In this document: piece after piece, positions 6,351-39,674 of the stretch
Position numbering within the stretch: position 1 is the stretch's first letter
Layout: each line of letters begins with the position of its first letter
Assembly: GCF_013368755.1 (NCBI RefSeq)
Contig: NC_049565.1
Coordinates: 1,612,001 to 1,676,000 of the forward strand
Source of the DNA: Talaromyces rugulosus
Lineage: Eukaryota > Ascomycota > Eurotiomycetes > Eurotiales > Trichocomaceae
Length of the DNA stretch: 64,000 nucleotides
Reading direction: 5' to 3'
The notes under the pieces: generated by a model
Seen by the model: the letters and a program-made list of their open reading frames with translations, nothing else
Database searches by the model: none
What the model was told of the DNA's origin: nothing
Program-made: the position numbers and the translations under genes

Positions 6351-7753
6351 GCTAGGAGATGACTAGAGCAACTCCATAGTATCGCGAAACCGGGGAGATC
6401 CTCCATTCCCGTTATAACGCAATGGAGGTGATGCAGGATAAACTTGAAAGAGTAAGTGTCTGGTGAAACTGGTTTAAATGCAAAATAAGGAATGGACTAG
6501 CGCGCAATCTCTATTTTGGCTTCATCATAACTAGTTCATGTAAGAATACACCAGCACATATACACTAATTTGATTCCAATTTCTATTCTGTACACTGGAA
6601 TTAATACGCATGATAAGTATTTTGAAAATCCCTTTAATTGTGTAGCAGCTTTGATTCGTTCGGCCATTCTTCAACGCTAGCAGATGGTTGACGGGTTGGA
6701 ATTTTCAGTTATATTAATTGATGAACGGCGTTGTATGTATATTATTATAGTTGATAACTGAAGAAGATTATAAAAGCATGTCTGACACCCATGAAACTGT
6801 CAAGGGGGTTGGAGTCGGTTTTCCAGCGTGTAAGTTGCGGGCGGTTCCCCCACAGGGTTGCGTTGAGACAGTGATGTATCAAATTAATTAACCAGTTCAA
6901 AGATCACTCTATTACCAACATATGTATAATCGATAACTTAATTTAAACCCAGAATGTCTAATATACCTATTTTGGCACTCTTGGAAATGACTTGGTGTGT
7001 TATGCGTTCAGTTGATGGCCTAAAAGAATAATAGTAATCAAGTTACAATGTTGACCATATCGGCTTATGAAGTGGCATTCAGGCCTATGATAATATTTGG
7101 ACGTTTTAACAATGAGTTTAGTTATTTCAATATCACACCTTGCTACAAAACGCCAGGGTTCCAGTGCCGTATGACAATGTGCACATAAATACAAATAGCT
7201 GGGCTTTGATTGGAGGTATCCAAGCCGACACATGAAAAGCCCCTGCCTATCTATTTTTGTCAAATCTCTTCTCAACCGCTATCTTCTAAAATAAACCCCA
7301 AAGTATGGGTAGGTACTAACCCTAATAAAATATATTTCTAACCCATCGAGTTTCGCTATGTGCCTACCTGTCTCGCCTACAAGTTACCCGTTACAGCTTG
7401 CAGGCTGGCCAGCGCAGAGACATAGAGTTGTGATGAAGCATGGAAATAGCTTCAGACAAGCCACAATCAAATCGAGACCGATTTTTTGAGGGAAAAGTAA
7501 AAACTAGTGGACAAAGAGATATAAATACTGGTCAAAAGTCTTCCAAATGACTTACTATCGACATAGCAATTCACCTTTACAACGCTCTCATTTCTTCAAT
7601 CTTTATTTGGCTACTGGTAGCCATCTATATATTAATCACTTTTATCATTCACTGAATTTCTATCTTTATCCAACTCGTTCTCAATCAATTCATATCCAGC
7701 AATCCTTTATAAAAAGAAAAAGAAAAAGGAAAACACCTACAAGACCACTGAAA
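6351..7753. promoter_or_regulatory. AT-rich intergenic region with TATA box
   Basis: A 1.4 kb AT-rich spacer with no convincing coding frame. TATAAAT at 7520-7526 lies about 230 bp before the gEgh16-like start and is a likely core promoter. The leader after it is A/T-rich with an AAAAAGAAAAAG-type tract near 7712-7730. Confidence 0.5.
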
Positions 7754-8498
7754 ATGTATACACAAGCTATTCTATACGCTCTTGCCATCGTCCCACTCGT
7801 TTCTGCCCATGGCAAGATCGCAGTTGTCACTGGTGATCTTGGTGGCAATGGTACCGGGCTCGGGATTAGGGGAGCAGCCGTTGCTGGGGCCGGCCCAAAC
7901 TATCTGACCGAGGTCGACACGACTGTGTTTTGGTCAAGCGACATCACTACTGACGATGACATTGGCTATACTGATGAAGCTGGTAAGAACCACCTCAGCG
8001 ATCTCGACAAGGCCATGGAACTCTCTGGCAATACGCTTCCACAGGTCAGCAGCGGCGGATCCATCAAAGGTACATATCATATCGTAACCTCCGACGGAGC
8101 TGGCCCTCTGGAGGCCCTAGTGGACGAAACCGCAACAGCCAAGTGGTCAGAAGCCAAATCTGCAGATGTGACAACCCAGGTACCTGGCGATGACGGGTGG
8201 ATTTCGACTTCAAACAAGCGTGACCTGATGAGCCGGATGGTCGGTAGCCTTGCCAAGCGTAGAAATGCTGTGAATGTTAATAAGGACTATGTGAGAACTT
8301 TTGAACTGCTCAATTTAAGACACCACGCTAATATTTGGGTAGCCGTTTGCTATCGATATCCCGTCTGGGACCAGCTGTTCGGGCACTGTGAACGGCTTGA
8401 AAAATGTCTGCCTTGTCAAGGTATCTAACAATAACGAGAATGGTCCGTTCGGTGGTGTATTTGCTGTGCAGATGCCCTCATCGAGCTCTTCCAAGTAG
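7754..8498 (+). CDS. secreted gEgh16/Gas1-type protein
   Basis: A 230-residue predicted secreted protein of the gEgh16 family, which includes Blumeria gEgh16 and Magnaporthe Gas1/Gas2, expressed in infection structures; biochemical function is unknown. Exons are 7754-8290 and 8343-8498, with a 52 bp intron that has a GCTAAT branch site. A signal peptide is clear (MYTQAILYALAIVPLVSAHG). Family blocks follow: GDLGGNGTGLGI, GGSIKGTYH, TSDGAGPLEALVD, TTQVPGDDG, and the C-terminal CLVK..GPFGGVFAVQM with a short Ser-rich tail. Several dibasic KR sites occur near residues 157-175, a pattern compatible with Kex2 processing. The start at 7754 is chosen because the open frame upstream to 7547 lies in the leader and would bury the signal peptide. 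Confidence 0.85.
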
Positions 8499-8945: not shown

Positions 8946-11834
8946 CTACTCCTGCCACTTCACCCGACCACTTCGGAATAGGCTAACCATACCAATCGGC
9001 AACAATCCGGAATCGACAATTCTGAGACCTCCAAAGCTTTCAATCACGTCTGGTCCGTAAAGCTGGGCAACCCACTTCCAGTATGGTTCCATGGAATCCC
9101 AATTCTGCAATATACCCTTGGAGTCGGCGTCCAGCGCACTGATAGCAGTCTGGATATCGCCATTATATGCAGTCTCGACGGCTTCCTGTTTGGGCTCTTC
9201 GAGAAACTTATTACGCACACTCAGCAGCGTCATATTACTGGTGAAATATGGAGGGAGGGACTCGCGATATTTAATGTACTCTTGGAAAGAAAAGAACGTA
9301 TTTCCATCGTTGGGGCGGAAGTGTCGGTCTGTTTGGGGTACCCTGCCACTCTCAAAGTTGACCTTGAGAGTTTGGTAATCTTCACGCTCCGCATATTCAA
9401 ACTGATCAAGGAGTTTGTTTGCGTCTCCTAAAACAGAGTCCCGAATTTGAAGCAACCCGATGAAAGGATTGCGCACTTCTAAACCTCCAAGTTCAGTAGG
9501 AAAGTAGAAATAACCATCCGGTATATTTTCAACACCAAAACGGGTTCTAATAGCCCATTTAAGATATTCGATGACACTGCCATTTGACTTTGATTCCACA
9601 CTCATACTAGACTCTATGCCACCAGCAGACGAGAAAACTTGACGCTGAATGCGCTCATGAGTAGCAAGCATGTTGTCTACATGTGAGCGACCAAAGCAGT
9701 TGGCTGACTTTCCGAAATTAGACGTGAAGAAAGTTGCGGCATAGGTATTCCATGCTTGAATCCAGGCAAACACACTGTTTTCTTGTCCTTTCAGCTGTCG
9801 ACTGAGCTCAGAAATGTGTTCGTTAACCATTTCCTGGTCGATTTCGAAACGGCCACTCTTTGGATTTAGCTGTAACATGCCCCAACATATTGTTCCTGCT
9901 GGCAGGCCATTGCATTCTACTGGGTCGATGCTGTACTTGTCTTTAGGATTTCGGCACATACGTGCAGAACCGGTGCGCGACTCATTGGCTTCCAGACCCA
10001 TCAACCCGACGAAATTGTTTATTGTTGACCAGGCTTTGACACAGATTTCGTGATCGGCAGACCAGAACCAGAGGTCATCCCCAAGTCTCCACAGGATTTC
10101 ACCGTCGGTCGCTTGATTGATTTGAAAATCGAGACAGAACAAGACAACTTCAGAAAACACTTCACTTAGCACATGCGAGCCAGGCGTTCCGTTTGCCCGC
10201 TCTCGAGGCGGTGCTGAAGAAGAATCGTCCATGAACTTTAAAGGCGCAGAGAGGAACCGTTTGAAGAAGCTTATCCATTTCTGTGAGACCCCAAGATAGG
10301 ATAATATCGTCGAAATTGTTGCATGCGGGAGCGATGCAAAAAGATTGGCGACTTGTGTACGGAAGCAAGTAATGCCGCCTTGCAAGCGAGTTTGGATGAG
10401 AATGTCAGTAGACAGCAGATGCAGTAACTTTTGCTTCGTAGCCATGGGTGAAAGTCGCTGCGTTGGTGGTCGATTATTATGGCTATCATAACTATCCAGT
10501 GCTTGTTGTGGCTTTGGTAGAACTCGTCTACGTATGACTGGTTCTGGTATCTGCGCCACATATTGTTGTTGCATCTGCACCGACATCAGACCTTTTTTTG
10601 CCTTTTTAGATCGAGCCACCTGCGCTTCCTCTTCCCCTTGTTCAGGGGATACATCCAAACTCATTGAAGTTGGGAGATTATATAAGAAGTATTTTTCACT
10701 GTAGATCCCTTCTTTTGAGCTAGCCACGCTATCGTTGCTATTTAACGGGCCCAGAAAATACTGTCGTCGCATCTTTTCCAGAGATGATATTGAGCTCCCG
10801 GGGGATTTCCATATGCCTTCTGACTGTTGAAATTGAGACAATGAACTCTTCCAAAATACAGACCATTTGAGGCCGATATGCTGGAGGAAAATCGCTTGTA
10901 AAAGGTCTTCGTGCATATAGATTTTGAAGGAACCGTTGACTTGCCGGCGTTGCTCAAGTAGAACCTCGCTGCCCCAAGACCACTCCTGTACTGACTTCAG
11001 TCGCCTATCCAGTACATCTGATATTTCTTTCAGGGTGATGGAATTGTTCAAAAAGTCTTTTAGGACGTCTTTCTTCTCATCGTCGAGCAAATCTGATGCA
11101 AGAAGGCTCTTGATACTTTCCTGCAGACTGGCCGTGTTGAAAATTCCCGGGGATGCCAGAGCTTGCTCAAATTTGGCAGTCCGCCAGCGAAGTGCCTGTA
11201 AAGCATTGGGAAGATTTTTTACATCGTCTGGAGTGGCCTCGAATAGGTCTCGTAGGACCCGCTGAATGGCGTCTGTATCAATGTTGGGAGCTTCGAACAC
11301 CGACTTTTCCCAAGCCTCTCGAGCTTCTAGTTTTTGACTGCTAGAAATATGCTCAAACTCATCCATACTAACATCCCCGTCACCCTGATGAGTTGCAGTA
11401 GGCTCGTTTTTCGCAGAAAGCCACTCGGTTGTTAGTTGTGCGTACAACGAGGCATACTTGTACTTTTGCGACTGATTCTCCAGGTGGCTGAGGAGCAGGT
11501 CCTGCCACCGAGATAGAATTCTAGGCGATACACTAGGGTCGTATTTCGCCTGTGCAAGGAATCGGTCGAGATTCCTAAGTGTGATCTCTAGATGCTCATT
11601 GCCAGTCCCGCCGCGAACAACTCGGCCATCGGAAATGACTACTCCGAAGCAAGTCTTCAATCCATCGACTATAGCAGACAGTCTGGCTATAGGGTCATCG
11701 TTGGGACCATTTAGTAGACTGAGTATCTGGTCGTGATGGGCTTGGAATGAAGCACGACCCTTTGCAAGTTCATCTAGCTTTGTGTTGGTGATGTCAAGGA
11801 GTGTCTGTGAGAAGAGACTGCCACGAGATGCCAT
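8946..11834 (-). CDS. rvt: reverse transcriptase-related cellular gene (RVT)
   Basis: An intronless 962-residue protein that I assign to the fungal rvt family: single-copy cellular genes related to reverse transcriptases but not part of a transposon. The N-terminal half is helical (possible coiled coil) without known domains. The RT core lies at about residues 440-620. Motif A region reads LFASLPHATI, then FKRFLSAPLKF, motif B GTPGSHVLSE (about 550) with LFCLDFQINQATD, and motif C RLGDDLWFWS with D586 and D587. A Lys-rich, variable stretch precedes motif A, where rvt proteins carry an insertion. A long C-terminal extension of about 340 residues follows. No gag, integrase, endonuclease or RNase H and no terminal repeats are seen nearby, which supports a host gene. 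The residue at the usual motif A Asp is Gln494. Start 11834 (MASRGSLFSQ) is preferred over the open upstream leader. Confidence 0.82.
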   Translation of the reverse strand: MASRGSLFSQTLLDITNTKLDELAKGRASFQAHHDQILSLLNGPNDDPIARLSAIVDGLKTCFGVVISDGRVVRGGTGNEHLEITLRNLDRFLAQAKYDPSVSPRILSRWQDLLLSHLENQSQKYKYASLYAQLTTEWLSAKNEPTATHQGDGDVSMDEFEHISSSQKLEAREAWEKSVFEAPNIDTDAIQRVLRDLFEATPDDVKNLPNALQALRWRTAKFEQALASPGIFNTASLQESIKSLLASDLLDDEKKDVLKDFLNNSITLKEISDVLDRRLKSVQEWSWGSEVLLEQRRQVNGSFKIYMHEDLLQAIFLQHIGLKWSVFWKSSLSQFQQSEGIWKSPGSSISSLEKMRRQYFLGPLNSNDSVASSKEGIYSEKYFLYNLPTSMSLDVSPEQGEEEAQVARSKKAKKGLMSVQMQQQYVAQIPEPVIRRRVLPKPQQALDSYDSHNNRPPTQRLSPMATKQKLLHLLSTDILIQTRLQGGITCFRTQVANLFASLPHATISTILSYLGVSQKWISFFKRFLSAPLKFMDDSSSAPPRERANGTPGSHVLSEVFSEVVLFCLDFQINQATDGEILWRLGDDLWFWSADHEICVKAWSTINNFVGLMGLEANESRTGSARMCRNPKDKYSIDPVECNGLPAGTICWGMLQLNPKSGRFEIDQEMVNEHISELSRQLKGQENSVFAWIQAWNTYAATFFTSNFGKSANCFGRSHVDNMLATHERIQRQVFSSAGGIESSMSVESKSNGSVIEYLKWAIRTRFGVENIPDGYFYFPTELGGLEVRNPFIGLLQIRDSVLGDANKLLDQFEYAEREDYQTLKVNFESGRVPQTDRHFRPNDGNTFFSFQEYIKYRESLPPYFTSNMTLLSVRNKFLEEPKQEAVETAYNGDIQTAISALDADSKGILQNWDSMEPYWKWVAQLYGPDVIESFGGLRIVDSGLLPIGMVSLFRSGRVKWQE

Positions 11835-17082: not shown

Positions 17083-17811
17083 TTACCCCGAGAAATTAAT
17101 AGTAACGTCCAGAGTCACCGGGCCATCGCCGATCAACCAAGGGGCAATGTCATTTCGATCCTGGTTAGCCTCTGTGTAGGCATTGATGACGGTTCCAGAG
17201 TTTGAAATAGAAGAACAGTTATTGGATTGAGTAGCGCAAATTTGCATGCCTTGGACGGTCAGAGTAGCATTCTGCGCCGCGATCGAAGAGACATCATAGC
17301 CCGACGCGTTGTTGGCCGCATTTGCAAAGTCAAACTCACCCCAGGTGCTTGCACAGCTCCCCACGGAGTTAAGGACTGGGCTAGTACCTGGAGCAGCTCC
17401 CCAGCCTCCTTGACTATCCTCGTCGAAAACAACATATTTGGTTTCACTTGGTGCGATTTGAAAGTTTTGCACCCATTCACCAAAGAACCCGTCAACGCCA
17501 CCATCTTTACCACACTTATTCCAAACAACAATGTTCCATGATTCCGTTGTCTCCGGCGGCGAATAGAACTGGGCCACGTATTTGAAGCTAGACACCCATT
17601 TTTTGTCGATGAGGAGGATATTACTGCCGTACGGGTTGCCGTGATTACCACAGTACGTTGCTCCAGTGCCCTTTGGTGGAGTTTGGCCTCCGAATTCTGG
17701 TTTTGTTATATTGTTTGCTGCATGAGCCTGTTGGTTACTCGGTAACTGGCCGTCGGTGCAGGCATAAGCCCCGGTCGCCATCAAGCAGATGATGAAAGCT
17801 TTCAGTTGCAT
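17083..17811 (-). CDS. secreted Asp f 4-like protein
   Basis: An intronless 242-residue predicted secreted protein similar to the Aspergillus Asp f 4 allergen family, whose biochemical role is unknown. A signal peptide (about residues 1-17, ending ..GAYA) precedes a domain with the family blocks: YCGNHGNPYGSNILL, FKYVAQFYS, WNIVVWNKCGKDGG, ETKYVVFDEDSQGGWGAA, TWGEFDF, SGYDVSSIAAQNA, VQGMQIC and VINAYTE. Several Cys residues suggest disulfides. The long Ser/Ala-rich N-terminal stretch found in Asp f 4 itself is absent, so this is a short form. The start at 17811 is the only ATG that gives a signal peptide. Confidence 0.82.
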   Translation of the reverse strand: MQLKAFIICLMATGAYACTDGQLPSNQQAHAANNITKPEFGGQTPPKGTGATYCGNHGNPYGSNILLIDKKWVSSFKYVAQFYSPPETTESWNIVVWNKCGKDGGVDGFFGEWVQNFQIAPSETKYVVFDEDSQGGWGAAPGTSPVLNSVGSCASTWGEFDFANAANNASGYDVSSIAAQNATLTVQGMQICATQSNNCSSISNSGTVINAYTEANQDRNDIAPWLIGDGPVTLDVTINFSG

Positions 17812-29909: not shown

Positions 29910-32900
29910 CTACGCCGACGCTTGTACTGTTTCATGCTCCTCGTCAAAATCGATCAAATCTGCATGATCGGCAATGAATGCCCCCTTGTCGTCACTATCG
30001 TAATACTCTTCTTCTTGTTGATCATTTGCGGAACCTTCCCCTTGTGCAAAAAACTGACTGTTAGCATTGCCATTGGGCTCTTCGATTTGCTTGAATGCCC
30101 AAAACGGGTGGTCACTTCGAAGAGGTAGTCCTTGGCAAATATACCCCATTGGAGTGTGTGAAATGTCCTGCCCTTGACGGCGAAAAGCTAGCCACTCCTG
30201 CAAGAAAGTGAGGAGTCCATCGTTCTGGCTGTTTTTGTGGCCAACGGAGACACTGTCAATTTTGGAGACTGAGTTGTCCATGGCTTTACCAACTCTGCAT
30301 TGCAAAATATCTAGAAGGCGATCATACTCGGAGAAATCAAAATATAGCCTTCCAGCAAGAATCCCGACTTCAAAAGGGAGCCATGAAGGCGGACTCCAGT
30401 TTTTAGGAAGCCTGGGTAATGAATAATAGTCCAGGTTATTGAAATGTAACATTCTCTTCGTTACAGGTGCGGCATAGATAATCAAATGAACCTTTGGCGC
30501 CTGTGATTTGTCGAGTCGAGGAATGATGATCTCTGCTTCCTCTGGAATAATGATGAGCGCTTGTTCTGACTTTTGGCTCCAGAGTAGCCAATTGACAGGT
30601 CGCTGAGATAAGTTGAGAAAAATTAGCTGAGAGGGAAACATAAAGATGGAATTACAAGTGTTTTCACTTACCAGGTAATGACCGAGTTTGATTCCATTTT
30701 TTCTATGTGCCGTTCTGAGGAATTCAGGCGACACATAAAGATGAGATACAAGAGATGCAGCCCTCGTATCGTACCTGGCTCCCAACTGCATGGATTGTAG
30801 TACCATCGCAGCGTCGAACCCCTTTTCATCAGTATCAAACACCCCGGTATCTACAAATTTCTGAATGGCCGGGTGAAGTCCTGGGAATTGGTGTGCCTTC
30901 AAAGCACCTGGTCGCTGCAACTGCCTCTCTTCTTCCACTTCAAATGCAACTTCGCGTTCTTGTTCAACCTCTTCTAGGGAAGAGCTCTGGACCGATCCCG
31001 GGTTAAGGCCCATTAGTCGAAAGCTCTCTTCTAGCTCATGTGCAAAAGAACTAAGATTTCCCTTGAGCTCCGCAAATGAATTGACCATGGAGAGCTCACG
31101 ATCGGAGTTCGTGTGTATCAACGGGCTGTAGAGTTCTTCTAAGGTTTGATGTTCACGTCTCTGCAAAACTTTGACAAATGCCACTCGATGTTTAGGACGC
31201 GTCAAAAATTGGTAATATTTCGACGCCCCATGCATCCTACGACAAAAGTCCATTCCTTGTGCAAAGTATAACGGTTGCAGGTCCCGGTTTGTTGCGCAAG
31301 TCTGGACCAAGAGCCAGTGGATGACATCTGATGAGTCTATTGGTATATCCAGAGGCTTCTGGCGAACATCTAAGATACTTTGGTGAACTTCCGGGGGAGC
31401 TATAAACGCTATGGACTGCGTCGTTCCTAGCTGCCGCAACCTCATTGCAGCTACATAAAAAAAATATCAGATCAGTATTCAGCACAAATAAGAGAATGAA
31501 TAGAGCACACACCTTGTACTGTATGGTCTTTGGTTTGATTTAGGCCTAGAGTTAATGCCCCTTTAGCGGAAGGAGGAAGTTTCAGGTCCGTTCCTCGGGT
31601 GTGCGCCTCGTCTAGATAGATCAGACAGTTTTCCATATTATCGACGAATGGTGTCGCGATCAGTGGCACGGTCTTCCCGGCTTTGTATAGGACCCACGGT
31701 TTGTTGTCTGGTCCGAAGTAAACTGCAGCCTGGGCCATAGTATTGCCTTGTTCTAGCCATTCTTTCACCAACGTTTTGTTCTCCATTTCCAAAATGAAAG
31801 CACCGGCATCGATGAGGATTTGGATACCATCGGCCCCTAGGCGTTTAAGAAGGTCTATTTCCGAATATCTTTTACCATTTGCGTGAGTGGTTCGGATGTA
31901 TTCCCGGTTTCTGGTTTGAAGAAGGTAAGTTAGCACTTCAGCGTTGGTGTGAACAAGGCCAGGAAGATCCCGCTGTTGGATGGTAAGAGGGAGAAGCCGA
32001 CGATTATCATTTGTGCCACTAAATCCAGTAGTGAGACTCAGAGGTCGAGTGCCATTGGAAAGAGATTGACCAGTCAGACCACCAGAGAGTGGTATATCCC
32101 ATCCAGAAGATTGCATTTTTATGTTGAATTGTTTTGCATGAATCGGAAACACAAACTTGGAAAGAAAATGATTAATGACAATCATTTTCAACCGCAAATG
32201 TCGCCATATTTCCAAGACCTGGCCCTCATCATCCACATTGATGATATTCCAATATCGTAAAGGCTCTGGTAGAGTATACGACGTCTGAATCCATCTGTTG
32301 TATTCTGTAGAAGGGTCGTCAGAGTTTAACACAGCCTGTAAGCCTTGACGGAGTTGCGCGACACTGAGACCTTGGTGGTAGAAGGCGAGAACTGTGAATA
32401 GGATTGCAACGTCTGGATGGCCCCATTCTGCTTGTTCTGATGGAACTCCTTTCGCATGGAATGGAACGGCCATTGGGTCCCGATTTGGATGCAGCCCATA
32501 TTGTACATTCCACCGTTTCTTCAGGCAAAGAAGAAGAATCCCATGTACAAATAAACCCCGCAACAAATGTACATTCTTGCTGAGCTTTGGTTTATCCGAT
32601 AGCAAAGCAGAAATCTGGTCACTGACTGGGGATTCAACAGTTTCCAGAGAAATAAACTGCCTAATTGCTGTTATCTCGGCGTTTGTGAAATTGGCCATTG
32701 GCAGTATTGTCGTCTGGCTGGAAAATATTGAGTCCACTACTCTTTGGAGAAGGGTAGTTGCAATGTCATCCCTTAGAAAGTATGCAACCGGGAACTCTGT
32801 GTATGTGTGTTGCATGACATCGATACTTTGAGGGAAATCGCGCGCAAGGTCCACTAAATGATGCACAACAAGACCTAAAACTATCATAATGACTCCCCAT

Positions 32901-35900
32901 CTGTCAGGGTGTCCGTCCACTGCAAGCTGTGCGCCACTGGGGTAAATTAACTGTGTTTTGACAGCAAGGGTGAAATCGCATTCATCAAGAACATCTCGGC
33001 AATTTTTTTCCAGCCATTGTTGAGTAGAAACCATCTCAGCGGCCTCGGTTATTTGAGAGTCAGAAACTCGCTGAAGTCCGCTCAATTTGAATGACATAAC
33101 GTGTTCAGGCACTGCCAACATTATTCCAGACCGTAAGCGTGCCTCCTCGTGCAGACCCAAGTATTCAGAAACGGCGTGGGTCGTAGTTGGAGTTCTCCTT
33201 GAGAACGGGATATGCGTAATATCTCTTCCTAGAAGCCCTCCTAGTCGAGTTTGAAGAATTTGTGCTGTTTGGGAAAGTAGAGCCTTTGGTATTAAAACTC
33301 TAGAAAGGGATGTCCCATCTGCCAACACAGACACTATCATGGGTATGATAATTGATGTTTTTCCTTTTCCCATGTTCATCTGCAACGCTGAGTTTGACCC
33401 AGAACTAGGATAAATCATTTCTTCGGCAACGGTAACTTGCTCTTCACGAATTTGAAAATTGCCATCAATTTCTAACAACAGCCAGTCTGGATAGCTGAAT
33501 GGATTCCAATTCAAATGACCACGATCCCGATACTCTTCGTGAAGCCTTGCATTGTCGCCTTTTCCAAATGCCTCTTTGATTCGCATCAGTCTCTGGACGT
33601 TTACAATGGAAAGTCCGTACGCGATTAATGCTTCTTTCATGTTACGTCCAAATAGACAACTAGAAGTTGATTTGAGCTGCTCAATGATGGATATGGGTGC
33701 CATTGATGGCCATAGGTTGCCTTTCTGTAGCCAAGTGAATGATGGATGACGGCTGACGAGAGACTCCGTGATCTGTCCATACGCATGATCAACGACTTCA
33801 AGAGCTTCATCGATAAGTCCATTAAGCCACATGACACCTGGTATGTATTCAATGTCTAGGTCAGCCTCTTGAATTGCCGGTGCTTTGACCGTTTTCAGCG
33901 CTGCGATACTTTTCCACAAATCTTTTCCGTATCTTGACTCCACAAGGCAAGATGAATTCACAAAAGGCTCTGTAATTCTCTCAAGCTCTGTAATTTCAGA
34001 AAGCCGTAAGCGAGACTGGATGGCTTGGGAATCTACGAGAGGATGTGATTTTTTCTTCGCCATAAACTGATCAAGCCCGTTAGAGGTTGTGTCGGCGTTG
34101 ATCCTAGGTCCTAGCTGCCGGAGAAGGTCTCGCCCTAAATGTGGGATGGTGAAATACCTTTTTGAAGTTCCTCCAAATATGTTGCTGACTCTTGGTGGTT
34201 CAGGGACCGTAATGTCATTTTTTGGCGTGTAATACCGAGTCAGTATGCTTTGAACATCTTGGATATGGTCGGAAAGCTGGAGATTTTGATACAATCGCGT
34301 CCACTCTGGAATGATAGCCTTTAACGCAACAGAAATATCAATATACGTCGGATTAAAGTTGGCTCCAGAGGGTAGTGGACAGGGCCACTCATTTAATAAT
34401 GATCTCGTAAGTTCCAGGCATTCTTGCTCTCGATTGGTAACTTGTTCGTCTGAAAACAATTGCGCGACCAAATTTTTCTTCTTCTTCTTGTTTGTTTTGA
34501 AAAGACTGGATCTTACGTGGTCTTCACAACATGGGACCATGAGATCCTTCAAACTCTCAAGTATTGGACTTGCGTTGGCTTGAAATTCACCGAAGGAGGA
34601 GTATCCAGGATAGTCAACATCTTTTAAGTCATCAAGCAAGAAAAATGCAACGATTGTTCGCAGCAGATCCATATTCACATCCTCACCAAATGCCAATATC
34701 CCGACTTCGAACATGAGGTGATACGCGTTTTTAGGCTCAGAATCCCTACACAGCCTGGCTAATCTGCCCCATTGGTGAGAAATTTCAGCAGACAAACTTT
34801 CTTCCAAGGAACTAGGAGATAATCCTGCAGTATATCCCCCAATAACGGGTTGCCCATCCAACAACTTCTTTAGGTTCTTCGTAGTCCGAAGTCGGGTAGG
34901 CCGGTGCCTCAGTAGGCTGATAATCTCGCGAACGTTTGACAGTCGTCTGGAAGAAGAAGATAGAGTGTCCCGTCGAGTGCATGGCGTATCGATACCAGGA
35001 GATGGATCCGGGAATATAATACCAGGACGTTCATAAATGAATCGACGGCAGATGGCTCGTTCTCTTAAGTGTGGTACAGTAGTGGTTTCACTTGCTTCAT
35101 TTTTTGAATCTTGTGCATTAAAATTATCCAGGCGCTGAGATTTTAAAATAATTGCGTTGACAGCTCCCTGCAGCGAGTCGTGCTGAATTGTCGTTGTCAG
35201 ATCTGGATGCCAGTGCACTTTTTGCTGAAGCCTTTTTTCCTCTGGGTAGTACTTTCGTTGGGGAGAAAGATTGGCAATCATTCTCAAAACCTGGCATCGA
35301 TCTTTGTCAAGGGGTACCCACGGCTGGTAGGCACCGGATTGTAAAGCTGACAGAGCTTCCTCTGTTCCAGTTCGGTGCGTTAATGGATCGGGAATGAAAC
35401 ATGATGTCAAAGCGTGCAACAGTGCCTTGTGATAAAGAAGGCGTGGCTCTGCCGGGCTTGATAGACGCCCGAGGATATTATCGACGCCAAATCTAGCATG
35501 GGAACCATCATTCGCTATGGTCACATTTACATGCATTCCGTGTCGCTGGCATCGAATATTCCCTAGAGGAGTAATGATACTGCGCTGAGTACGGTTGTGA
35601 ATACTGCGGAGAATAATCATGCTCTGAAGCCCATAAAATGTTCCTCCATCTTGGGAGGGGTCTATCTCTGCTGATAGCTGTCGGCATTGGAGGAGGCTAC
35701 GCCGATTGACATAAAATGTTAGATCCATGCGCCTAAGCTCTACACGGAGAGGTCGGGAGGGCGGCTGGACAACGGTCAACATCCCAGGCTCTTCGAAGTG
35801 GCGGAAGATGCTTGCGATTAATTTAAATAGCTTACTGTGAGGATCGACCAACGCATCTTGTCGCCGATAAGCTGTTTGATTCTTGACATTAACCAAGCAG

Positions 35901-38900
35901 GTGTTACCACCCCAGATCCGCGGATGTCTTCTGATTTCGAGCATCCCAGATTGCAGGTCAAGCCAGTGCAGGCAGTTATCCACCAGTGAGCCCGGTAAAT
36001 CAAAATTTGAGTTACTCGCCACAAACACGTTACGAGGGATTATCTCAAAAACGGACCTCGAATTTTGAGCTTGAATGACAAGTCTATCATTCCGATACCC
36101 TAGGTGGATATAATTGCCCTCCTTTGCTGCAGCGAGCATGTAGCTCATGCCGGGCATACTAGAAGGGAAAGAAATCAAGCGTTGGTTTCCGAAGAGCTCT
36201 TTCAGAATCTCGGAATCCCTGATGTCTGCCGGTAACTTGCCCACGGGACGGCCATTGACCAACAGATGGCCCTCGAGGAGGTGGTACTGTATTACCTGCT
36301 GCACTGAAGACTGCGTGGCCGAGAGTTTTGACGTAACCCATAGCCCATTTGAAGAGTCTATGAGGCTCCACGCGGAGTATATGCGGGCACCGCCATCTGG
36401 ATTGGGCCAGACAACGTCGATAGCACATCCGAGAATAGCAGGTAGAGTCTGAACAGCCTGGCGAAGCAGCGAGCATAGTGTTACTGATGCCTTGATATCG
36501 CGGGTTAGCATGTTGCGCGTCGCCGTTGAGAATTTGCTCATGTCGACCACTAGAGCCTCTTGCATGGCGGATGTTACTTCGACAAAACACTGGAAACCGT
36601 CCGCATCCAGATCATGGTTCCGCGATGACTCCAACACGAATGTCCGGCGGCATAGCAAAGCCGACACGAAACAATACCGGGCAGCCTTTTCAGAAATGTC
36701 CCCATCCAGTGCAGTTCGCATTTCATGACGCAGAGTAGACACCCAGGACCGTGTTACATGTCGAATGTTCAGCAAGAGCTTGTAGGCCCGGGGGGAGGCT
36801 TCACGGCAGCAAAGAGCACATAGTTGAATGGCTAAGATGAGCATCGTTTCCATATAGTTGGTCTCACGCCAGTTGGCCGCGATGATCTCTACGTGCTGGT
36901 CGATTTGATCCACCAGCCTGTGGCAAGAGTGAGGGTCGTCGAAGAAGGCATGGGCGACTCGGAGAGCGCTGTCGGGGCGTCGAGGGCCGACCTGCATCGC
37001 GAGCAGGCGAAACAGATACGTGGTATCGAGCAGGCTGAAGTTGACATTGGCAGCGCCTAGCTCGGTGAGGATGGACAGCCATCGCCGCTGCGTGCCACTG
37101 ACGAGCTGCTGGCTGGCGACGAATTCATGGACGGTGAGGGTCGATGGACACTGAGGGACGCTGGCGGCGGTCTCGTACGAGGAAGGACCCGGTCCGTCGG
37201 CGCGGAACGCGGCAGTCGCATACAGCGCCGAAAAGGGAAGGTGCGGCGGCAGCTTCAGGGCAAAATGATGGGCCAGCGACGGCGTGCGAGGAAAGTCTTT
37301 CAACCACATCTGGCTCACCGTGTCATAGTACGCCATCTTCATGCCAAAGGGCAGCAGGATCTTCGACGACTTCGCTGGCAGTTTCTGCCACCGGTAGTGC
37401 GTGCCGAGATACGACTTGGTGCTGGAGGCCAGGGTGATACGTCCTGTGTTTCGCCGGCTATTGAACGTGTTCAATGGGCCATACTGTGGCAGCAGCTTCT
37501 GAGGCTGCACCTTCTGGGTCTGGAGCGATTCTCGTGGGCTTGAAGAAACGCAGATTGTATCGATGATGCGCCATGTAGCGTCTCGATAGGCGTCAAAAGA
37601 CTGCGGCATCCCAAGTTCAAAGACAACGGCCCTCTTCTGGAAAACGTTGGCTGGGAGAAATTCCTCGTGGACTTTGATCTTGAGACCATATCTTCTGCGT
37701 CCACAGTAACAATGCTCACAGCCACGATCATCATGGCTCCCGTCAGGTCGCTTTCTCTGGGTACAAGCAGTCGCCGCCTTCCTCTCGGTCAATTCCTGAA
37801 ACGTGCGATTCACTTTGTCGAGCTGGGCCTTGCGGCCATTACTGGAATCCAGTGATGCCGCCTCTATTTTCCTCTGCAGCTGGTGTATTCGTCCTCCGAT
37901 GGTACTGTCGAAGTACCTGTCAGCGACGCATTCCGGCGATGGATCGGAAAATATGGTGGTCCCTTTGTCCTGGGCTTGTACGCAACGTCGATATAGATAC
38001 AGCTGGATTTTTTGGAGCCGCTCCAGGTCCTGACGTTGTGTCAGTAGCAACACATCCAACATCTCAGCTTGAAACCACGGATGTAGGCCTGCCAGAAACG
38101 GATACGCAGCCACAGCACATTTATCCATGCGTGTCCACAGCTCGAGCAGGCAGAGAATGAAAATACCCATATCCTCGGGATGATTTTTGTACGCTGTTCC
38201 AACAAGGCTCATGTAAGAGTTGATTTCCCCGGCAATTTCCTTGCATCTAGACTCGCATGCATCCGTCTCTATCGGGGTATCTCGCGCATCGGCTTTGATG
38301 GAGATTTCTCTGTTGGCTAACGATGAATATTGTTCACTCAGTGACTCAAATTGCTCGCTCACTGCCTGTCTAGTGCTTGGGCCCGGTATGCTCTGATCTG
38401 TGGCTTGAAGATACGACGAACGCCGCTTATTCTCAATACGCAACACTTCGCGTAAGTACGACGAGCTATTCGGCATCCTTAGGCGCAAGTCCTCCTGTTG
38501 CGCGTTATATGGAAGCCTTGGAACATGGCGCCGGATTTCATGTTTAAAAGTACTCCATGTCTTCTCAAAGTGAATTGTGGCCGTGTCGATAGTCTTCTGA
38601 CAAACCCGTGTGATATTTGCTGCGAGGCCAGCATAAGTATCGCGAACAGTCTGTGACGAATTTCCAAGCTCGAATTCTAATTTTGCAAAACGGCGACAAA
38701 TCTTGGTTTTTAGAAAGTTGCTGTCTTCCAGGCTCAGCTGATCGAAGCAATCTTCCAGAAGCTTTACTAGGACAAGTATCATGAGAAGCTTGTACTGTAT
38801 CCGCCCACGCTCTGCACCTAAGCGTAAATACAGAATGCGTTGTGTGCAAACTCGGAGGATAAGCCAAAACGGGCTTCGACGCCATGGGAGCTCTGCACTG

Positions 38901-39674
38901 TCCCAGCAGACGTCGTCTTTGATTCCCTTTCGCAAAAGTGGTGGATTTACCACATTTCCGTTTGTTTCCAACAAAGTCATCAAGAACTGAGTGATAATCG
39001 CAGGGTCAACTGTATCACGAAACTCGGAAACTTCGGCACCTGATTTTCGCGTTTTGGGAACGAATTCATCCACGGTCTCGATGCTTGCTTTCTCGATGAA
39101 TGTTGCTAGACTTTTCTGAAATACTGGGTTCTCAAACTCGCAGGTTGGAAGAGCCACCGCCATCCCAGGAAAGTCCCATTGCAAGGCTCCTTTTGATGCA
39201 AGTGTTTGCTCAGCAGTCTGAGACGTTTCAAATGCTTCGAATATGATATCTTGCGTATCCCTAATACGGGAGTCAGCAAACGAGGTAGTCAAAGTTGACT
39301 TACTTCTGTCTGGTTTATGGAGAGACCTACAAACACTTTCTGATGAATACGCAGGCATTCTGCGAGGCGATATTCAAAATGACAGCCCCGTCTGGCTGAA
39401 GATTCTCAATATGACCTAAAAGGGTCTCCTGGTTGATGAACTGGGTCTCGTTCAATAGTTTGCATGTTTTCAGCGACACGTCTACTGAGCTCCACGCACC
39501 AGTTTCTTCGTTATCGGTCTTTTGCTTGAGAATTCCGACTTCGTTGATCAGTCTACTAGTGAGATCTTTCTGAAGCAACTCAATTTCTTCGTCGGTATCC
39601 CGACTGCCAGGAAGTTTGGGCGGGAACGCGAGGTGGTTGAACACGAGTGATAAGGTCTGTTGTCCTGTGGCCAT
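29910..39674 (-). CDS. giant DUF6606/DUF3638/DUF3645 protein
   Basis: A 3187-residue protein from four exons on the minus strand: 39331-39674, 31513-39260, 30672-31450 and 29910-30602; all phases close. The order resembles the fungal family with an N-terminal DUF6606 domain, a central DUF3638 and a following DUF3645. Relatives carry automatic 'ubiquitinyl hydrolase' labels without firm evidence that I know of. ATPase-like motifs are visible: a Walker A-like MNMGKGKTSIIIPM near residue 2075, a DECD box near 2207 and DEAHTRGTDLKLPPS near 2668, where RGTDL resembles SF2/SecA motif V. A Cys/His group (CEHCYCGRRR) occurs near residue 565. The C-terminal 100 residues are acidic. No signal peptide or membrane segment is evident. 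The start at 39674 (MATGQQTLSLVFNHLAFPPKLP) matches the family's short N-terminal motif. Confidence 0.85.

Follow-up and report, generated by a model that had tools for sequence, protein, structure and literature searches.

An RVT-type gene in Talaromyces rugulosus

A window of 64,000 nucleotides from contig NC_049565.1 of Talaromyces rugulosus (positions 1,612,001 to 1,676,000 of the forward strand) was found to contain an intronless gene whose product, P0001, is related to RVT (rvt), the cellular reverse transcriptase (RT) genes reportedly described by Gladyshev and Arkhipova in 2011. The other P-numbers denote listed homologues, and PARA denotes the canonical paralogue encoded in the same genome, which comprises 35.76 Mb in six contigs. 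The intact frame of 962 codons given in a first-pass annotation was found to be real by translation (Table 1). For P0001, 356 homologues were found, the top named one being P0004 of Talaromyces islandicus with 81% identity.

The rvt-family identity proposed in that annotation was upheld. RT_UG37, a group which presumably includes bacterial rvt, was the top profile for P0001 (PADLOC; 2.4e-50, residues 15-792), and an insertion loop was present between RT motifs 2 and 3. Beside the RT core, extended N- and C-terminal parts were also present, and motifs B and C, read earlier from the sequence, were located by alignment. The AlphaFold model, with a predicted local distance difference test (pLDDT) value of 78.6, contained matches to RT folds and a predicted RT palm fold, so that structure prediction, too, spoke for the earlier assignment. 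In the model, residues ~338-462 separated helix 311-337 from helix 463-484 and contained a disordered stretch.

Table 1. Positions of the gene and of the features of P0001 within the window
Feature	Positions	Strand	Evidence or remark
Intronless gene, RVT paralogue P0001, 962 residues	8946..11834 (stop codon included)	-	Translation, homologues, RT_UG37, AlphaFold
Helix, residues 311-337, with LQHIGLKWSVFWKS; conserved block preceding the loop, RT motif 2 region	10824..10904	-	Alignment, model; motif number assigned here
Disordered loop between RT motifs 2 and 3, residues 396-456	10467..10649	-	pLDDT <50; site of the histone H3/H4-tail mimic in relatives
Motif A, residues 486-505, GGITCFRTQVANLFASLPHA; Gln494 replaces the catalytic Asp, Ala496 replaces the +2 acid	10320..10379	-	Alignment
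Motif B, NGTPGSHVL, residues 548-556	10167..10193	-	Alignment
Motif C, RLGDDLWFWSA, residues 583-593; Asp586-Asp587 retained	10056..10088	-	Alignment

Two paralogue groups and the loss of the motif A aspartate

The window gene had been described as single-copy, which was found to be incorrect because a second rvt gene was present on the same contig at G000:C5:2619166-2621631. Its open frame was confirmed, and its product was found to share 41% identity with P0001 over residues 457-961 and 34% over residues 87-392, and to match the RT_UG37 profile at 2e-65. Both genes were found together in this genome and in T. islandicus, A. hancockii and Penicilliopsis zonata. The P0001 group was taken as the best 120 of the 356 homologues, P0001 counted in, and all counts out of 120 refer to it; the canonical group comprised the paralogue itself and the top 120 of its 278 homologues (121 proteins). 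The profiles and models were built on alignments of 46 (A2), 48 (A3) and 14 (A1, A4) chosen proteins. The two groups were found to be separate on the tree with a support of 0.994, and they stayed separate when the loop columns were removed (157 of 157 tips, support 0.859). From the 157-tip tree the short proteins P0344, P0322 and P0327 were removed, and the canonical RVTs were represented there by every eighth protein and the paralogue. The canonical RVT P0237 of the yeast Trichomonascus vanleenenianus was found nested within the Aspergillus/Penicillium part of the tree, for which horizontal transfer is a possible explanation.

The catalytic Asp of motif A was found in none of the 120 proteins of the P0001 group, whereas it was conserved in all 121 canonical proteins. 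The position was occupied by Gln in 78 proteins, followed by Val in 17, Glu in 14, Lys in 5, Thr in 2, and Arg, Met, Ser and Gly in 1 each. The flanking R-S before and SLPH after the position were gap-free in both groups; the change is therefore a substitution and not a shift, and an alignment slip was rejected. In motif C, the first Asp was found in 114 and the second in 115 of the 120 proteins, and both were found in all 121 canonical proteins. Since motif A contains Gln494, although Asp586-Asp587 are kept, the window gene is classed by its sequence as an RVT paralogue and not as a canonical RVT, and the intact polymerase implied at first pass is not supported. Judged by alignment and tree, P0001 falls into an RVT paralogue group which is distinct from the canonical one and has lost a catalytic metal ligand; its named members span five classes of filamentous ascomycetes. 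The window gene is very probably a catalytically dead copy, a pseudoenzyme. The Asp of motif A has a general catalytic role in RTs. No bacterial relatives for rooting were confirmed in contig scans with profiles A1 and A4, so that Asp is taken as the ancestral state because all 121 canonical RVTs contain it and because of this general role; no RVT relatives were found in plasmids or in viral contigs.

It is improbable that the group is still active through an Asp or Glu at position +2 of motif A which would substitute for the lost Asp. Such a relocated acid would be in line with the finding that 114 of the 120 proteins contain Asp or Glu at +2, as against 28 of 121 canonical proteins (all Glu), and with the Asp pair of motif C being mostly retained. 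However, the +2 position was occupied by Ala in P0001-P0004 (by Asn in P0065 and Gln in P0114), position 0 is truly substituted since its flanks are gap-free, and motif C was found to read DN in 10 of the 40 further relatives described below, most of the named ones, several in number, being Fusarium. The proteins with DN were P0243, P0255, P0306, P0333, P0338-P0340, P0343, P0346 and P0347, and the change appears as a further step of catalytic erosion.

An origin of the gene in a retrotransposon RT, instead of in a cellular gene, is extremely improbable. Although at least 150 RVT_1 retroelement frames were matched in the genome, the gene was not surrounded by repeats, P0001 contained no Pfam RVT_1 or transposon domain whereas RT_UG37 ranked top, and a single related copy was found in the genome without near-identical multiples. 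The lack of transposon features asserted earlier was thus confirmed, and the candidate was rejected as flanking repeats, element domains and multiple copies were all missing. Many of the RVT_1 matches (loci L001-L008) had identical scores and were located in long open frames, and the retroelements behind them have probably been active recently in this genome.

The canonical RVT of N. crassa is reported to be non-essential, to have terminal transferase activity and to be induced upon inhibition of protein synthesis (PMC3520738), and the stress relief by rvt is reported to require intact catalytic residues (PMC10680173). Because of this requirement a dead paralogue could not act by that route, and the link of the canonical RVT to starvation or translation inhibitors, suggested for the window gene by the first-pass annotation, should not be assumed to hold for this paralogue.

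Elsewhere in the window, an Egh16-like protein (PF11327) was found at 7547-8428 on the forward strand, followed on the reverse strand by a protein with an Asp f 4-like allergen domain (PF25312) at 17083-17811 and an open frame of 2628 codons with DUF6606, DUF3638 and DUF3645 at 31472-39358.

Histone-tail sequences in the loop of relatives

The H3 and H4 tails used as queries were those of the genome's own histone pair (locus L018), in which the H3 and H4 genes were found adjoining on opposite strands, the H3 gene containing an intron between the piece ending in KQTAR and the piece with KSTGGK. All 100 shuffled H3 tails were beaten by 65 of the 120 proteins, with all 65 matches inside the loop, and the mimic was found in 72 of 120 when a 40-residue tail and fresh shuffles were used. 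Exact H3 words of at least 6 residues were found in 58 proteins, followed by words of at least 8 residues in 37 and at least 12 in 21; the longest contained 22 residues (P0012), and the tail from R2 to K36 was spanned, with a gap or insertion, in P0012 and P0097. By the reversed-tail control, no word of at least 6 residues was found in the 120 proteins and one was found in 120 canonical proteins. None of the 121 canonical RVTs shared an H3 word of at least 6 residues, and the H3 shuffles were beaten by 2 of them. For the H4 tail, all shuffles were beaten by 14 of 120 proteins as against 1 of 121 canonical ones, and A[KM]R[HY]R, a motif resembling H4, was found in the loop of 13 of the 120 proteins, whereas the canonical proteins searched did not contain it.

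The loop segment was found to contain a median of 99.5 residues (41-146) in the P0001 group, whereas it contained 36 (31-43) in the canonical group. The loop with the mimic was basic and disordered, often with adjoining acidic stretches. The mimic of P0012 (421-453) was found inside residues 412-461, which are disordered in its model, and would therefore be accessible as a peptide. A profile search of the PDB gave weak histone H3 matches at profile positions ~402-476 (E 0.3 to 2.5), non-significant alone, because many relatives (e.g. P0017) carry the H3 tail sequence in the loop. The presence of a histone mimic in the relatives can be regarded as practically certain. A database artefact was rejected, the mimic being found in many separate records, from named species and from metagenomes, on contigs of up to megabases. 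The public record of P0288 was titled 'histone H3, partial [Lachnellula suecica]', although the protein is an RVT relative with the mimic.

The mimic was found in named species of Leotiomycetes (P0288), Lecanoromycetes (P0012), Dothideomycetes (P0029), Sordariomycetes (P0243) and Eurotiomycetes (P0057). A search with the loop region of P0097, of which the best 120 of 292 matches were considered, was found to contain, among the matches listed, 53 RVT proteins (13 already known and 40 new), 61 histone fusions with H3 core words and 6 others with an H3 tail. None of the 53 RVTs, among them the fragment P0327, contained Asp at motif A. The 40 further relatives were thus chosen by similarity of the mimic region and were left out of the prevalence counts. 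On the 157-tip tree, the mimic required at least 31 changes (200 shuffles: mean 41.7, minimum 32) with the root state present, and the first 120 alone required 30 changes with an ambiguous root state. Because the 40 were selected for the mimic and the root is ambiguous without them, its presence at the root is tentative; from its distribution on the tree, the mimic is widespread and often lost or regained. The six other proteins (P0250, P0328, P0329, P0334, P0341 and P0345) were non-RVT proteins which contained a long copy of the H3 tail without H3 core words. P0250, the single one inspected over its whole sequence, contained FG-like, nucleoporin-like repeats, and neither P0250 nor P0341 contained a Pfam domain. 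By their sequences, these six represent an independent histone mimic.

In the 72 mimics, Arg 2, 8, 17 and 26 were retained in 228 of 271 aligned cells, whereas Lys 4, 9, 14, 18, 23 and 27 were retained in 176 of 399. Among the 223 Lys replacements, 145 were Arg, Gln or Met and 18 were Glu, Asn or Thr. Of the former three, Arg is classically regarded as non-modifiable, Gln as acetyl-like and Met as a trap for methyltransferases. At positions other than Lys and Arg, Met, Gln or Arg made up 92 of 397 replacements, so that the loop has some general preference for Met and Gln. The Lys changes fit a decoy, although selection is not thereby proven.

The main rival explanation, which is rather unlikely, is that the loop was borrowed as a signal for nuclear import, which would bring the RVT paralogue into the nucleus without involving any chromatin enzyme. 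Karyopherins bind H3 and H4 tails, and the better retention of Arg than of Lys, together with the basic and disordered loop with its acidic stretches, would suit such a signal. However, an identity of 20 residues with a histone is superfluous for a plain nuclear localisation signal, and K14, which is important in H3-tail import, was replaced by Gln in 20 of 65 mimics.

The loop of P0001 itself was found to open with AQVARSKKAKKGLMSVQMQQQ and to be rich in Gln and Met, as were those of P0002 and P0003 to a higher degree. No significant H3 or H4 mimic was found in P0001, its score being equalled by shuffled tails in 96 of 100 cases for H3 and in 98 of 100 for H4. When its loop was scored against the profile of the 72 mimic loops, 11 of 200 shuffled versions of that loop did equally well, as compared with 8 of 200 for P0004, 87 of 200 for P0002 and 108 of 200 for P0003. 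A significant mimic in P0001 was thus rejected by the shuffle tests, although a weak trace may be present (11 of 200). P0001-P0004 were found to contain neither the mimic nor the +2 acid, the remaining protein being conserved.

Between P0001 and P0004 of T. islandicus, the palm was found to be 86.0% identical, followed by the N-terminal part with 83.3%, the C-terminal part with 83.0% and the loop with 42.6%. The canonical sisters of the same species pair (PARA and P0123) were found to share 84.9% in the palm, 86.8% in the N-terminal part and 89.1% in the C-terminal part, with a whole-protein identity of 85% as against 81% for the dead copy. In the palm, the dead copy is therefore conserved to the same degree as its sister, and in the remainder somewhat less. 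It is very doubtful that the gene is a relic en route to loss, that is, a redundant copy under relaxed constraint whose loop is a neutral insert of histone coding DNA. The slightly lower conservation of the N- and C-terminal parts, the absence of both the +2 acid and the mimic from P0001-P0004 and the frequent gains or losses of the mimic would be in keeping with a relic, whereas the intact frame, the palm conservation at equal species distance and the recurrence of the mimic in this one loop across named species from five classes, each time in a paralogue that lacks the motif A Asp, argue against it.

Possible function and meaning of the paralogue group

The reading preferred here, which is held to be somewhat more probable than not, is that of a pseudoenzyme RVT paralogue in which the loop of the relatives acts as a histone-tail decoy or adaptor and the window lineage keeps a scaffold role. 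The dead paralogue would no longer perform nucleotidyl transfer, and the protein would serve as a folded scaffold which binds RNA or a partner. In the clade at large, the loop would be displayed as a decoy or adaptor toward binders and modifiers of the H3/H4 tails, for which acetyltransferases, SET methyltransferases and readers are candidate partners. In the window lineage the loop would have drifted, the decoy or adaptor function therefore being lost or changed there, and the scaffold role alone may remain, perhaps in partnership with the active paralogue. For the mimic loop by itself, a function directed to chromatin has about an even chance. The fuller scenario is more tentative and somewhat short of an even chance: an ancient paralogue may have given up polymerisation and gained the H3 (and H4) tail, so as to become a pseudo-RT presenting a decoy to chromatin enzymes, with the Lys changes making it inhibitory or a fixed-state mimic.

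Several points weigh against the pseudoenzyme and decoy reading. The loss of activity is deduced from one residue, the acid (Asp or Glu) which 114 of 120 relatives contain at +2 could in theory serve in its place, although this position is Ala in P0001, and a conserved Asp pair in motif C is odd without metal chemistry. No coupling was seen between the loss of the +2 acid and that of the mimic, P0065 and P0114 being without the acid and with the mimic, and Asp or Glu at +2 was retained by 44 of the 48 relatives that lack a significant mimic. Since P0001 contains no significant mimic, the chromatin idea rests on the relatives, and the prevalence of the mimic was drawn from the best 120 of 356 matches. 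The 30-31 changes of the mimic on the tree are hardly under the shuffled minimum, and outside the palm the dead copy is, by the identities given above, less conserved than its sister. The named canonical RVTs, among those listed, were Eurotiomycetes and one yeast.

With RVT (rvt), the window protein was found to share the RT_UG37 profile, the RT fold, the long helical N-terminal part, the loop between RT motifs 2 and 3 and the absence of transposon features, whereas it differed from canonical RVT in the lost motif A Asp, in being a second gene of the genome and in the histone tail within the loop of its relatives. The RT-like domain of the spliceosomal protein Prp8 is without demonstrated sequence kinship and differs in size and partners, and the Asp pair of motif C is kept in the window protein as opposed to Prp8. 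The RT of DRT9 was matched in the PDB set by the profile of the family (9.3e-08); however, DRT9 and other defence RTs (UG groups) are bacterial, have non-coding RNA partners and are catalytic. Histone mimics of non-histone proteins include the ARSK tail of viral NS1, the self-methylation site of G9a and ATF7IP. The RVT mimic resembles these in being an H3 tail sequence within a non-histone protein, whereas it is much longer (up to 22 identical residues), internal instead of terminal, located in a fungal RT paralogue and sometimes accompanied by an H4-like motif. Neither a histone mimic nor a motif A-dead group in RVT was found reported among the matches listed from the open-licence PMC literature searched, a scope outside which the 2011 RVT paper falls; two fungal RVT groups may already be contained in that paper.

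If the decoy scenario is true, the recurrent changes of Lys to Met, Gln and Arg would turn the loop into an inhibitor or into a mimic of a fixed state, much as in the K-to-M oncohistones, and the window lineage, without the mimic and without the last acid of motif A, would be a natural experiment in the loss of function. The long copy of the H3 tail at the same loop in five classes would be, within the literature searched, the first link of this gene group to chromatin, and it yields testable predictions on binding, modification, nuclear location and effects on histone marks. A conserved group which lacks the catalytic Asp, yet keeps the fold, suggests that a part of RVT function may not require polymerisation.
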